Shown here piece after piece: positions 6,291 through 11,736 of a DNA stretch of 35,932 nt; the stretch's first letter is position 1, and every line of letters starts with the position of its first letter. The notes under the pieces are model-generated. The model saw nothing but the letters and a program-made list of their open reading frames with translations, was not told the DNA's origin and ran no database searches. The stretch comes from Planctomycetota bacterium (GTDB taxonomy: Bacteria > Planctomycetota > JAJSAM01 > JAKLKS01). The DNA is taken from NCBI GenBank assembly GCA_023150535.1, contig JAKLKS010000012.1, forward strand, positions 1 to 35,932. The letters run 5' to 3'. A program made the translations under genes and the position numbers.

Positions 6291-7691
6291 GTGGCACCGC
6301 TCCGGGGGATCCCCGCGGCCGCGATCCTGGCGGCGGCCGCGGCCCTCCTCCCCGCGGCCCCCGGCTGCGCCACCGCCTCCGAGGAGATCGCCCCCGCCCG
6401 CGCCGCCTGGGAGGCGGGGGACCCGGCGGGGGCGCTGGCCGCCCTGGACGCGCTGCGCCCGCGGATCGGGAAGGACGCCCACCTCCTCGACCTCGAGCGC
6501 TCCTCGGCGCTCCAGGCGCTGGGGCGGTTCGGGGCCGCCGCCGACGCGGCCGTGGACGCGGCGGAGGCCATGGACGACCGGGAGGCCGCCGACCTCGCCT
6601 CCTGGGTCGGGGCGGTCCTCGCCGACGACACCGCCTTCCCCTTCGAGGGGGCGGACCACGAGAAGGTGCTCGCCAGGGCCATGGCCTCGGTCTCCCTGCT
6701 GATGGCGGGGGCGCCCGACGACGCCCGCGCGCTGGCCCTCCAGGTGAACCGGGTGCAGGACCGGCTGCGCTCGCGGGCGGTGCTGGAGCGGGAGGACGAC
6801 GCCCGGCCCGGCTACCACCCCTTCGCGCTCGGGGAGTACCTGCGGGCTCTCTCCGACGAGCAGCGGGGCTTCCTCGACGAGGCGGCCATCGGGTACGCGG
6901 AGGCGGCCCGGTACGGCTTCCCCGGCGCGGGGCGGGAGCGCGACCGGGTGAAGAGGAACCGCCTCGCCGAGGGCGAGGGCCGCGGCGCCGTCGTGGTCCT
7001 CTTCCTCGCGGGGAACGGGCCGCTCCTCGTGGAGCGGGTGGAGCCGGTGACGAGCGCCGCCTTCATGGCGGCCTCCTCGATCCTGAACGCGCGGAAGGGC
7101 TTCGGCATGCCCTCCCAGGCCCCGGTGGAACTCCCCTGGCCCGAGCCCCGGCCCTCCCCCGTGGCGGCGCTCCGGATCACCTCCGGCGCGGGGCTCCTCG
7201 GGACCACGGAGACGCTCCTCGACGTGGACGAGACGGCGCTCCGGCAGGCGGCGGACGAGATGCCGCGGGCCCTCGTGAGGGCGATCTGCCGGAGGGCCTT
7301 CAAGGAGTACACGAAGAACCTCGCCAAGGACGCCGTGGCCGGGAAGGAGCACAACTGGCTCGGCTTCCTCGTGGACGTGGCGGGCTACGTCTGGACCGGC
7401 GCGGAGAGGGCCGACACCCGCTGCTGGTCCTTTCTGCCGAAGCGGATCCAGGTCGCGCGGATCGAGGTCCCCGAGGGGGATTCGATCCTCCACCTCGCCC
7501 CCGTGGACGCGCGGGGGCTCCCCGCGGGGGAGGAGGCCGCGCTCCCCGTGCGCGTGTCGCGGTCGCGGATCGGCGTCGTGCTCGTCGTCGCCCCCGTCGC
7601 GGGCCCCCCGCCCTTCGCCTTCGCTGATCCGCGGACGGCGATGACGACAGTACTGAACCCGGCACAAATCAGCAGGGAGGAGGGACCATGA
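6291..7691 (+). CDS. COG3014-like TPR lipoprotein
   Basis: A 466-aa predicted lipoprotein. It starts at GTG 6291, and the signal peptide ends with 'PAAPGC' (Cys near residue 26). Residues 30-220 are Ala-rich helical repeats resembling TPRs ('AREAGDPAGALAALDAL'-like units). The C-terminal half contains 'VVVLFLAGNGPLLVERVEPV' and 'GAERADTRCWSFLPKRIQ', which I associate with COG3014 proteins found beside LpoB. The biochemical role is unknown; envelope assembly is likely from context. Its last 16 codons lie in the left arm of a 38-bp inverted repeat and use codons otherwise rare here (ACA, GTA, GCA, CAA). Its TGA stop overlaps the next ATG (ATGA). Confidence 0.72.
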   Translation: MAPLRGIPAAAILAAAAALLPAAPGCATASEEIAPARAAWEAGDPAGALAALDALRPRIGKDAHLLDLERSSALQALGRFGAAADAAVDAAEAMDDREAADLASWVGAVLADDTAFPFEGADHEKVLARAMASVSLLMAGAPDDARALALQVNRVQDRLRSRAVLEREDDARPGYHPFALGEYLRALSDEQRGFLDEAAIGYAEAARYGFPGAGRERDRVKRNRLAEGEGRGAVVVLFLAGNGPLLVERVEPVTSAAFMAASSILNARKGFGMPSQAPVELPWPEPRPSPVAALRITSGAGLLGTTETLLDVDETALRQAADEMPRALVRAICRRAFKEYTKNLAKDAVAGKEHNWLGFLVDVAGYVWTGAERADTRCWSFLPKRIQVARIEVPEGDSILHLAPVDARGLPAGEEAALPVRVSRSRIGVVLVVAPVAGPPPFAFADPRTAMTTVLNPAQISREEGP

Positions 7692-7747
7692 GAGGGCTCC
7701 GGCCCGTCGCCTCCCTGCTGATTTGTGCCGGGTTCAGTACTGTCGTC
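7643..7747. repeat. 38-bp perfect inverted repeat across a gene junction; possible translational hairpin or insertion
   Basis: Bases 7643-7680 are the exact reverse complement of 7710-7747, separated by 29 bases. Each arm has 22 G/C of 38, far below its surroundings. The left arm encodes the C-terminus of the COG3014-like protein and its inner end is the ribosome binding site (GGAGG 7676-7680) of the next gene. The ATG at 7688 lies in the loop, and the right arm encodes the hydrophobic core of that gene's signal peptide. In mRNA this would be a very stable stem hiding the binding site. It could instead be a small palindromic insertion (MITE-like) or an assembly or template-switch artefact. 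Confidence 0.85.
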
Positions 7748-9142
7748 GCCGCCGACCTCCTCGGCGACCCGGCCCTCGCCGAGTGGAAGGACGGGCTCCC
7801 CGTCTCCTGGCAGGTGATGGAGGGTGCGGTCTCCGGCCCCGGGAAGTCCGGGACGGAATCGGAGATCGCCCGCGGGCCCGAGGGCGGGGTCCTCCTGCGG
7901 GGGGACGCGGGGACCGGGCGCTGGCGGCTCCTCCGCCGGCCCTTCGAGGCGAAGGGGGGGACCGTCTACCGCCTCTCCTTCGAGTTCCGGGCGGCGGGGC
8001 TGCGGCTCGAGGCGGGGCAGTTCGACAACTGCTGGGCGGGGCTCCAGCTCCCCGGCGGGGCGGGGAGCCCCGCCCTCTCCTTCACGACCCTCGGCGAGGG
8101 GGGGTGGCGGCCGGCGGAGGTGATCGCCCGCGCCGCCGCCGACGGGACCGGCGAGGTGCGCCTCTTCCTCAGCCGGACCGGGACGCTCGAGGTCCGCGGG
8201 CTCCGGCTCGAGCCGCTGGAGGCCGCCGATTCCTTCGACGTCCTCGTCCGCCACATGGGGCTCCACTACAGCCACTTCGCCTCCAAGGGGATCGACTGGG
8301 GGAAGGAGGCGGAGGCCCGGGCCGGGCCCGCCCGCGCGGCGAAGGACCCGGAGGCCTTCGTGAAGGAGGTCCTGCCCCTGCTCGCCCGCCTCGAGGACGT
8401 CCACGTGACGATCCGGGCTCCCGGGGGCCCCGTCCTCCCGACCCACATCCGCCGGATCTCTCCGAACATCGACGTCGCGTCCCTGAGGAAGCGGCTCTCC
8501 CCGGGGGTGACCCTCGGGAAGGCCGGCATCGCCGGCGTCGCGGGGAGGGACCTCGGCTACCTCCTGGTCGGCCTCCTCCCCGACCCCGCGGCCGCGGCCC
8601 CCCTGCAGGAGGCCCTGGAGGGGATGCTCGACCGCCGCGGGATCCTCCTCGATCTCCGGGCCTGCCCCGGGGGGAACGAGACCACCGCAGCCGCCCTCGC
8701 CCGGGCCTTCGTGAAGGAGCCGGTCCTCTACGCGCGGAGCCGGTACCGGGACGGCCCCGGCCCCGCCGACTTCGGCGCCGCCGTCGATCGGGTCCTGCGC
8801 CCGGGGGAGGGGCGGCGCTTCGAGGGGCCCGTGGTCGTCCTCGTCGGCCCCGCCTGCGTGAGCAGCGGCGAGGGGTTCGCGCAGATGATGGCGGCGATCC
8901 CGGGGGTGGTCCTCCTCGGGCAGCCCACCGCGGGCCAGAGCGGGAACCCCCGCCCCCTGGAACTCCCCAACGGGGTGGTGGTCGCCTTCTCCCGCTGGAT
9001 CTCCCTCCTCCCCGACGGGACGCCCCTCGAGGGGAAGGGGGTGCCGCCGGACGTCGTCCTGGAGCACGCCGGGGACGGGGACCCGACCTTCGAGAAGGGG
9101 CTGGAGGTCCTCGAGGGGATGGCGGCGGAGGCGGGGCGGTAG
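7688..9142 (+). CDS. S41-family (C-terminal-processing/tricorn-like) peptidase, exported
   Basis: A 484-aa predicted exported protein. The signal peptide 'MRGLRPVASLLICAGFS...' ends near 'TVVAA' and uses codons rare in this genome (ATT, TGT, AGT, ACT) because it lies in the inverted repeat. Residues about 30-180 look like a beta-sandwich (jelly-roll) domain. Residues 190-260 are helical, with 'EVLPLLARLEDVHVTI' typical of the S41 N-terminal lid. The catalytic domain has 'GILLDLRACPGGNETTAA' and 'VVVLVGPACVSSGEGFAQ', the nucleophile Ser being in VSSGE near residue 393. 'GVVLLGQPTAGQSGNP' and 'GKGVPPDVVLE' complete the fold. No PDZ domain is evident. The start overlaps the upstream stop (ATGA). 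Confidence 0.82.
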   Translation: MRGLRPVASLLICAGFSTVVAADLLGDPALAEWKDGLPVSWQVMEGAVSGPGKSGTESEIARGPEGGVLLRGDAGTGRWRLLRRPFEAKGGTVYRLSFEFRAAGLRLEAGQFDNCWAGLQLPGGAGSPALSFTTLGEGGWRPAEVIARAAADGTGEVRLFLSRTGTLEVRGLRLEPLEAADSFDVLVRHMGLHYSHFASKGIDWGKEAEARAGPARAAKDPEAFVKEVLPLLARLEDVHVTIRAPGGPVLPTHIRRISPNIDVASLRKRLSPGVTLGKAGIAGVAGRDLGYLLVGLLPDPAAAAPLQEALEGMLDRRGILLDLRACPGGNETTAAALARAFVKEPVLYARSRYRDGPGPADFGAAVDRVLRPGEGRRFEGPVVVLVGPACVSSGEGFAQMMAAIPGVVLLGQPTAGQSGNPRPLELPNGVVVAFSRWISLLPDGTPLEGKGVPPDVVLEHAGDGDPTFEKGLEVLEGMAAEAGR

Positions 9143-9234: not shown

Positions 9235-10203
9235 CTACTCGCCCTTGAGCTTCTTCAGCCTCTCGTCCTGCTTCTGGAAGAAGCCCGCGGCCTGGGGGTT
9301 GTCGCCGAACTTCCCGCGGACGACGCCGAGGGCCTTCTCGAAGAGCGCGACGTCCTTCGTGGCCTCGGCGTGGTCGAGCATGAGGATGTAGTAGGGCTGG
9401 AAGGACCGGCCGTCGGGGTCGGGCTCGGCCCCCGCCTTCCACATCTCCGCGAAGGCCTTGCCCGCGGCCTGCTTCTCCTCGGGGGTGCCCTTCCGGATGC
9501 CCTCGAGGACCGCGCCGATCTCCTTGTCGAGGAGGGCGCCGGCGACCCGCTTCCTCTGGTCGTCGGAGAGGTCCTTCATCTTCGCCGCGGCCTCGCGGGC
9601 CCCGGCGAGGTCGAGGTTGCCGACCTCGACGTCGAAGAGGAACAGCTCCAGCGCCTCGGCGGCGGGGAGGTCGGCCTTCGCCTTCTTCGCCGCGTACTCG
9701 GCGCCCTTCTTCATCATCTCCGTGAAGCCGGCGACGTCGCGGCCGCCCTCGAGGGTCGCCGTGACCCGCCCCTCGGCATCCAGCGCCACGATGTAGGGGA
9801 AGCCGCCCCCGCCCTTCCTGCCGAGGAGGTCGTCGTCCTTCTTCCCCTCGATCCGGGTCGTGATGTGGCAGAGGAGCACGACGTCCTTCGCCCAGGCCTT
9901 GAACTCGTCGGTGGAGAGCACACGGCTCTCCAGAGCCTTGCAGGGCGGTCAGGGACTGTAGGAGCGGGAGAAGTAGGCGAAGATCCCCTTCCCCGTCTCC
10001 TTCGACTTCGCGCGGGCGGCGTCGTAGTCGTCGGTCCAGCCGCCGTCCTTGAACCAGGGTTCGGCGAGCTTCTCCTCGTACTTCACCTGCAGCGGGTCCT
10101 TCGCGGGCGCCCCGGCGGGGGCGGCCTCCTGCGCGAGGGCGGGCGCCGCCAGGGCCGCGGCGAGGAAGCCGGCGGCGGCGGCGGACAGGAACGTACCCTT
10201 CAT
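9235..10203 (-). CDS. Exported thioredoxin-fold selenoprotein with U-P-P-C redox motif (in-frame UGA read through)
   Basis: Read as one frame this is a 322-residue protein: signal peptide (cleavage near 'ALA-QEAAP'), a segment with 'EPWFKDGGWTDDYDAARA', 'GKGIFAYFSRSYSP', then TGA (9949-9951), then P-P-C-K-A-L-E-S and 'VLSTDEFKAWAKDVVLLCHI'. The TGA stands where a thioredoxin-fold protein has its first redox Cys, giving Sec85-P-P-Cys88. The fold continues with a cis-Pro candidate ('GGGGFPYIVALD') and about 130 helical, Lys-rich residues. The frame is open for 237 codons after the TGA, and codon use does not change. TGA is an ordinary stop in neighbouring genes, and hairpins follow within 40 bases. 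A nonsense mutation or a Cys-to-stop sequencing error is the alternative. Confidence 0.85.
9912..9937 (-). promoter_or_regulatory. Candidate bacterial SECIS hairpin region downstream of the UGA
   Basis: Two overlapping, mutually exclusive hairpins follow the UGA. Hairpin A (9924-9937) has a 5-bp GGCTC/GAGCC stem with loop UGGA; its loop is 17-20 bases past the UGA and has G at its second position. Hairpin B (9912-9932) has a 7-bp UGGAGAG/CUCUCCA stem with loop CCGUGUG, 24-30 bases past the UGA. Bacterial SECIS elements are known to lie immediately 3' of the UGA with an apical loop about 16-37 bases away and a G near the loop start, so A fits the rule best. Confidence 0.6.
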
Positions 10204-10365
10204 GGATCCTCCTAGTTCGGGGCCGGGCCCAACCTAACCGACTCCCCATGGGCGGGTTGCGGCGGAATCACCCGGGCCCTCCCGGGGGCCATTCGTCGCA
10301 TCTATGGCGATCATCCGCGCCGCCGGGGGGAGCGCCGCTTCCCCCGGACCCTCCATGCCCCTAGG

Positions 10366-11736
10366 ATGGTCACCCCGCCCCCCCCCTGCCCGCCCCCCCC
10401 TGGAGGCCCCCGCATCCTCGAACTCCTCGTCATCCTGGCCCTGGTGCTCGTGAACGGGCTCCTCGCGGGGGCGGAGATCGCCATCGTCTCCGTCCGGACC
10501 ACCCGCATCACCGAGCTGGCGCGCTCCGGCAGCGCCGCCGCCCGGGCCGCCCTCCTCCTCCGATCCGACCTGGAGACCTTCCTCGCCACCGTCCAGGTCG
10601 GGATCACCGTGGTCGGCGCCGCCGCGGGGGCCTTCGGGGGCGCGGCCTTCGCCGGGGACCTGGAGCCCCTCCTCGCCGCCGTCCCGCTCCTCGCCCCCTT
10701 CGCCCGGGAGATCGCCTTCGCCCTCGTGGTCGTCCTCCTCGCCTACCTCTCCGTGGTCCTGGGGGAGCTCGTGCCGAAGTCCCTGGCGCTGCGCTCCTCG
10801 GAGCGGTTCGCGCTCCTCGCCGCCCGCCCCCTGCTCCTCCTCTCCCGCGCCGCCCGCCCCGTGGTCTGGTTCCTGTCCGCGAGCTCCAACGCCGTCCTGC
10901 GGGTCTTCGGCGACCGGACGACCTTCACGGAGTCGCGGCTCTCCCTCGAGGAGCTGCGCCACCTCGTCCGGGAGGCCTCCGGGGAGGGGGGCATCGGGGA
11001 GAGGACGGGGGAGATCCTCTCCCGGACCCTGGAGTTCGCGGAGCTGACGGCGGAGGACGTGATGGTCCCCGCGAGCCACCTCGACACCGTCCCGGGGGAC
11101 GCCACGGTCGCGGAGGTCCGGAGGCGCTTCCTCGAATCGGGCCGGGACCGGCTGCCCGTCTCCGACCCCGCCGCCGACGGCCTCCTCGGCTGCGTCTCCT
11201 GGCGCGACCTGGAGTCCGCCTCCTCCACCGATCCCGGCCGCCCGATCGCGGGCCTCGTCCGCCCCGCCCCCTTCGTCCCCGAGGTGATGGCCGCCGTGGA
11301 GGTCCTGCGCACGATGCAGGCGAAGCGGTCCCCCGCGGCCGCCGTCGTGGACGAGCACGGGGGGGTCGTGGGGGTGGTCTTCCTGCAGGACCTCCTCGAG
11401 GAGATCGTCGGGGAGACCCTCGGGGAGCGGGAAGGGGCGCAGCCCTCCCGGATCCGGGTCCAGGCCGACGGCACGGCCCTCGTCGACGGGATCCTCTCCC
11501 TGCGGGCGGCGAACCGGGCCCTCGGCACCGCGCTGGAGGGGGAGGGGCGGGTCCGGACGGTGGGGGGGCTCTGCTCCGTCCTCGCCGGGGGGCGGATCCC
11601 CGCGGTCGGGGAGGAGCTGCGGGCCGCCGACGGGACCGGGCTCGTCCCCGTGGAGGTCTCCGCGCGGAGGGTGCGGGTGGTCCGGCTGGTCCCGTTCCCC
11701 CGGGGGGGGCCGGCCCCGGAGGACTCCGCGCCCTGA
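10366..11736 (+). CDS. CNNM/CorC-type transporter (DUF21 + CBS pair + CorC_HlyC domain)
   Basis: A 456-aa 'hemolysin-like' membrane protein. The DUF21/CNNM region (about 17-190) starts with 'ILELLVILALVLVNGLLAGAEIAIVS' split over a helix and includes 'VQVGITVVGAAAGAFGG' and 'LAYLSVVLGELVPKSLAL'. Two CBS domains follow (about 215-345), with 'LTAEDVMVP' and 'AAAVVDEHGGVVGVVFLQD' and 'LLEEIVGE'. A C-terminal CorC_HlyC domain (about 360-445) holds 'DGTALVDGILSL'. Relatives act in Mg2+ or Co2+ transport. The ATG at 10366 overlaps a TAGGAT -10-like hexamer (10362-10367), and the first 16 residues are Pro-rich and unusual. An ATC codon at 10414, seven bases after a GGAGG, is an alternative start matching family N-termini. 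Confidence 0.9.
   Translation: MVTPPPPCPPPPGGPRILELLVILALVLVNGLLAGAEIAIVSVRTTRITELARSGSAAARAALLLRSDLETFLATVQVGITVVGAAAGAFGGAAFAGDLEPLLAAVPLLAPFAREIAFALVVVLLAYLSVVLGELVPKSLALRSSERFALLAARPLLLLSRAARPVVWFLSASSNAVLRVFGDRTTFTESRLSLEELRHLVREASGEGGIGERTGEILSRTLEFAELTAEDVMVPASHLDTVPGDATVAEVRRRFLESGRDRLPVSDPAADGLLGCVSWRDLESASSTDPGRPIAGLVRPAPFVPEVMAAVEVLRTMQAKRSPAAAVVDEHGGVVGVVFLQDLLEEIVGETLGEREGAQPSRIRVQADGTALVDGILSLRAANRALGTALEGEGRVRTVGGLCSVLAGGRIPAVGEELRAADGTGLVPVEVSARRVRVVRLVPFPRGGPAPEDSAP

Follow-up and report, generated by a model that had tools for sequence, protein, structure and literature searches.

Does the single TGA inside an apparent thioredoxin-like gene end a short exported peptide, or does it encode selenocysteine (Sec) at a redox-active position? 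The gene lies in a window of 35,932 nucleotides, the whole stretch of Planctomycetota DNA analysed here, in which a preliminary description had proposed a probable selenoprotein. Sequence comparisons strongly support that the TGA at codon 85 would encode selenocysteine in the active site, and the proposal has been substantiated by selenocysteine machinery in the host genome, by approximately 109 homologues carrying TGA, and by a conserved SECIS hairpin.

A thioredoxin-like gene with one in-frame TGA

The minus-strand stretch 10203-9235 reads as one continuous phase with the TGA at 9951-9949 as its sole interruption, in agreement with the earlier observation of two in-phase frames split by a single TGA (Table 1). 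Translating this TGA as U yields a protein of 322 amino acids in which residues 81-88 are S-Y-S-P-U-P-P-C, within the context ...AYFSRSYSP-U-PPCKALESRVLS... The gene has no same-strand company, being flanked by two plus-strand genes, one for an S41 peptidase (7688-9142) and one for a CNNM/CorC transporter (10366-11736). Given that the DNA is GC-rich and the window holds 131 open reading frames of at least 80 amino acids, an open frame 3' of the TGA by itself proves little; a chance open frame is instead excluded by conservation, the identical column being TGA in approximately 109 distinct homologues.

The N-terminus, as read by eye, has a basic start, a hydrophobic core and an ALA-Q sequence, and a hydrophobic N-terminus is common to the homologues. 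The Thioredoxin_7 match (PF13899; 38.3 bits vs a gathering score of 27) spans the TGA, and 41 of 46 family members matched the same model at E ≤ 0.001. Together with the existence of Cys homologues, this upholds the placement of the TGA where a thioredoxin-like protein has C-x-x-C. An AF2 model computed with the family alignment (mean pLDDT 92.5, pTM 0.84) had a low-confidence N-terminus that included the putative signal peptide, followed by a thioredoxin fold to about residue 155 and helices at 157-321. For the thioredoxin part, profile and fold searches of the PDB pointed to Chlamydia DsbH, DsbD-gamma and AGR2-type domains, while the helical domain alone gave no significant Foldseek match in the PDB, only faint TPR/PPR similarity. 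Export and fold of the 322-residue product are thus predicted, the former supported by the N-terminus and the latter by the AF2 model, as the terms "exported" and "thioredoxin fold" had implied.

Table 1. Features of the predicted selenoprotein gene, in window coordinates.
Feature	Position	Strand	Details
Entire predicted selenoprotein gene	9235..10203	-	322 codons plus TAG stop (9237-9235), codon 85 = TGA; homologues align over full length
Shine-Dalgarno AGGAGG	10208..10213	-	Upstream of ATG at 10203; read from sequence
Putative signal peptide, residues 1-25 (...APALA-Q)	10129..10203	-	Read by eye
Thioredoxin_7 domain, residues 56-143	9775..10038	-	Pfam PF13899, 1.5e-9; AF2/Foldseek thioredoxin fold
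TGA codon, predicted Sec85, first redox position	9949..9951	-	Column is TGA in ~109 distinct homologues
Cys88, resolving cysteine in U-P-P-C	9940..9942	-	Invariant in family alignment
SECIS hairpin GGAGAGC-CGUGU-GCUCUCC	9913..9931	-	Starts 18 nt after UGA (18-36 nt downstream)
Pro136, cis-proline position of thioredoxin fold	9796..9798	-	Invariant in family alignment
C-terminal all-helical domain, residues 157-321	9241..9735	-	AF2 pLDDT 95.8; TPR-like hairpins at most

Conservation of the TGA across the phylum

Dozens of the 149 related genomes gave homologues whose aligned region contains TGA. The first 57 non-redundant TGA copies always had the TGA at the equivalent U-x-x-C place, with [TS]-R-S-Y-[AS]-P-U-P/G-P-C as the prevailing motif. 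A survey of 392 genomes of the phylum returned 128 matches at E ≤ 1e-50, 122 of them with an in-frame TGA by hand count, and approximately 109 distinct TGA copies (106-108 after stricter deduplication) were checked at the exact column. Neither TAA nor TAG occurred at the Sec column among the family copies checked (the approximately 109 TGA copies and the non-TGA copies), and no homologue with a natural terminus at codon 85 was observed. The invariant alignment columns were U/C85, C88, E92, P136 (the cis-proline position) and G145.

Homologues with Cys across the join, which the preliminary description had anticipated, align through codon 85. Three of them (L047, L051 and L071) have Cys (TGC) at the Sec column, and each is nested among Sec copies in the tree, indicating that Sec was replaced by Cys at least three separate times in the family; the hairpin described below is gone in all three. 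Searches of genome contigs and plasmids yielded distant Cys relatives at most, and clustering of gene neighbourhoods across homologues revealed no conserved partner gene, the recurrent open reading frames being mostly antisense artefacts.

A hairpin under selection in TGA copies

The bSECIS model specifies a stem of 4-16 bp and a loop of 3-9 nt with G in the first two loop positions, located 16-37 nt from the UGA and with a minimum free energy ≤ -7.5 (PMC13188914). The hairpin downstream of codon 85 satisfies all four constraints (stem, loop with early G, spacing and energy), with a 7-bp stem, an apical CGUGU loop 24 nt after the UGA, G at loop position 2, and a folding energy of about -13 to -15 kcal/mol. 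However, 19% of random window positions also passed the same rule. In such GC-rich DNA a lone hairpin is therefore weak evidence, and the argument is that of family conservation. Since RNAfold alone also gave the single hairpin a weak z-score (-1.68), synonymous-codon controls and Cys homologues were used as tests instead. An Rfam scan of the window gave no match.

In the family, 99/109 TGA copies passed the bSECIS rule vs 2/8 Cys copies, and G was present at +26 in 106/109 TGA copies. Stem pairing was scored as the better of two registers, given that the family uses two, with the 3' arm offset by 2 nt, which blurs RNAalifold and one-register covariation. TGA copies had 6.72 of 7 stem positions paired vs 4.76 with codons redrawn synonymously from the same gene, and Cys copies had 4.0 vs 4.2 under synonymous recoding, figures for which kinship among copies makes a formal p-value too optimistic. 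Given this excess pairing over synonymous codons in TGA copies and its absence in Cys copies, we infer that the hairpin is under RNA-level selection specifically in TGA copies.

Selenocysteine machinery and other candidate selenoproteins

The host genome assembly (4.4 Mb, 88% complete) was searched for selA, selB, selC and selD, as had been suggested, and all four were present: a tRNA-Sec with anticodon UCA (80 bits vs a gathering score of 47), SelB, SelA (490 bits) and SelD (384 bits). Planctomycetota is very probable as the host phylum from RpoB as well: that of G010, a genome given as belonging to the same phylum, shares 70% identity with RpoB of a named Phycisphaera sp. (L021/G149), and the latter is 49-59% identical to RpoB of the other genomes compared. 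The host SelD has its own in-frame TGA in GAG-U-ACK, corresponding to the Sec form (L018, minus strand; G000:C521), and 33 nt after this TGA lies a SECIS-like hairpin whose loop is GUG. Among the 149 relatives, SelA was found in 106 genomes, namely above cut-off in 36/38 genomes with the TGA form and in 70/111 of the remaining ones (one-sided Fisher p 6e-5, a value that overstates certainty, as members of one phylum are not independent). The two TGA-form genomes without a SelA match, G029 (80% complete) and G087 (92%), are both drafts. Selenocysteine coding, the SECIS element and the decoding machinery are thus well supported computationally.

A DsbD homologue in the host genome (L180:811-2763, minus strand; G000:C199:6463-8415) also contains an in-frame TGA, which is the first redox codon of the C-terminal (gamma) thioredoxin domain, in VDFTGFG-U-GNC. 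This second exported Sec candidate, like the conserved hairpin and the phylum-wide family, goes beyond the preliminary description. The DsbD TGA is shared by the relatives G015, G009 and G030 (L225, L232 and L236), and TGC occupies the position in L231 and L234. In G009, a second in-frame TGA lies near the DsbD gene (L232), in the TlpA-like motif VVVDFWGFW-U-PPC. A weak thioredoxin-like match with one TGA was also detected at G000:C504:5534-5836 (L242), on the contig that carries SelB; no clear U-x-x-C gene was resolved around it on contig C504.

Relation to known thioredoxin-like proteins

DsbH of Chlamydia pneumoniae (2ju5; NF043050), the top PDB profile match (2.3e-10), is likewise an exported thioredoxin-fold protein of the PVC group with the same placement of the redox motif, but it has Cys-x-x-Cys, no Sec and no helical C-terminal domain. 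The Sec85 protein scored 23.9 bits against the DsbH equivalog model (cut-off 190 bits), which matched 39/46 family members, all below its cut-off. The Trx7/PDZ domain selenoprotein (NF041199) shares the Thioredoxin_7 fold and a predicted active-site Sec, although it combines C-x-x-U with a PDZ domain, whereas the Sec85 protein combines U-x-x-C with a helical domain, has no PDZ match in Pfam, and reached 20.9 bits where the cut-off is 300. The thiol:disulfide interchange protein selenoprotein also has U-x-x-C in a thioredoxin-like domain (PMC13188914), but belongs to PF13098, the Thioredoxin_2 family, where the Sec85 protein, at 20.1, falls short of the gathering score of 27. Finally, the DsbD gamma domain (2fwe, 1uc7) has a similar thioredoxin fold by Foldseek and profile match; in contrast to this C-terminal domain of a membrane protein, the Sec85 protein is stand-alone, predicted to be exported, and has an extra helical domain.

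No NCBIfam model matched at or above its cut-off, those for DsbH and the Trx7/PDZ selenoprotein being nearest, and no Thioredoxin_7 U-x-x-C entry is present among the 119 prokaryotic selenoprotein families of a 2026 inventory (PMC13188914, Table 1). That Planctomycetes have selenoprotein genes is known in general (PMC4807772), and individual members of the present family may have been mentioned before. The family of the Sec85 protein is large and apparently uncatalogued in the open-access literature, NCBIfam and the 119-family inventory. It would add a sizeable selenoprotein family, with members in numerous families of a single phylum and frequently with multiple copies in a genome, whose genes standard annotation would split or truncate at the active site. 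Selenoprotein-rich organisms have so far been mostly anaerobic Deltaproteobacteria and Clostridia (PMC9312934). The present results point to a phylum with widespread Sec machinery that would use Sec in redox proteins predicted to be exported, and the three Sec-to-Cys replacements offer cases for tracing the loss of SECIS elements.

Proposed mechanism and alternative readings

The combination of a U-x-x-C motif at the N-terminal redox position with a cis-proline corresponds to a selenol-thiol oxidoreductase, in which Sec attacks and Cys resolves. In the mechanism that we propose, the downstream hairpin would guide SelB in delivering Sec-tRNA(UCA) to UGA codon 85, and translation past the UGA would yield the full-length protein, which the signal peptide would take out of the cytoplasm. 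The product would consist of a folded thioredoxin domain, in which U-P-P-C forms the redox centre and Pro136 is the cis-proline, and of the C-terminal helical domain, which probably binds partners or substrates. Sec85 would attack a substrate disulfide and Cys88 would resolve the selenenylsulfide, and the protein would then be re-reduced by a transmembrane donor of the DsbD type, itself a predicted selenoprotein in the host genome. Taken jointly, an exported Sec85 selenoprotein decoded by SelB with the hairpin as guide, acting as a periplasmic oxidoreductase of the DsbH/DsbD-gamma type and re-reduced by a DsbD-type protein, is in our judgement very probably correct. The protein is probably a periplasmic thiol-disulfide oxidoreductase working in the reducing direction, a direction that, like its donor and substrates, we infer. 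DsbH has been suggested to help maintain a reducing periplasm (PMC5193440). The low-pKa periplasmic reductase or isomerase of the preliminary description would likewise be a putative role.

Since the gamma domain of the host DsbD also has TGA as its first redox codon, a relay from Sec-DsbD to a Sec-thioredoxin is plausible. A broader version seems rather doubtful: many Planctomycetota might possess a largely selenium-based periplasmic reducing relay, in which Sec-DsbD would feed electrons to several exported Sec thioredoxin paralogues, up to approximately five per genome, whose helical domains would each confer a separate specificity.

The protein could alternatively be an oxidant, an isomerase or a chaperone-like holdase (compare CnoX/YbbN and AGR2), a reading that we consider unlikely while giving it appreciable weight. 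Thioredoxin-fold proteins span all redox directions, and Foldseek listed AGR2/AGR3 and, weakly, YbbN, which combines a thioredoxin domain with TPRs; however, the YbbN match had a TMq of only 0.24, the nearest matches were the reductive DsbH and DsbD-gamma, and the predicted Sec-containing DsbD donor in the host genome also favours a reductase.

It is very improbable that the UGA is a true stop releasing an exported peptide of 84 residues, with the downstream frame either separate, starting at GTG 9921, or unused. This is what gene callers would report, and the open reading frame 9235..9921 does have a GTG start; furthermore, since Sec is usually inserted with incomplete efficiency, a fraction of truncated product would be expected. 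A stop at this codon would cut the thioredoxin fold within the active site, yet sequence similarity, the Pfam match and the predicted fold all continue across codon 85, and selection on the SECIS hairpin is confined to TGA copies. Even less credible is a pseudogene or sequencing error, in which a Cys codon was mutated to or misread as TGA: TGA is one base away from TGC and TGT and Cys homologues exist (L047, L051, L071), but approximately 109 distinct homologues from many families of the phylum share the TGA, keep the frame after it intact and encode a conserved protein, which has already refuted this possibility, including the misreading of TGC that the preliminary description had considered. 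A lineage-wide recoding of UGA to Trp, Gly or Cys, which would also explain an in-frame TGA, has a negligible probability and is already contradicted, as had been argued before, by the use of TGA as the normal stop of other genes in the window (7689, 11734 for the CNNM transporter, 19853, and 22611 for TrkA), as well as by the Sec machinery and by non-Sec homologues having Cys, with a few degenerate copies.

Paralogues and divergent copies

Several genomes that encode the Sec85 family carry up to approximately five paralogues, some of them in tandem (G118 contig C29). Degenerate paralogues with neither U nor C at position 85 were observed (L066, L067, L068 and L216), and L195 has U-x-x-A and lacks the resolving cysteine. 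In the tree, a separate subfamily (L084, L087, L089 and L090), with the motifs YFGRxxPx-U-PPC or YVHRTxPP-U-PPC, branches apart from the main family; it has both the TGA and a hairpin too.
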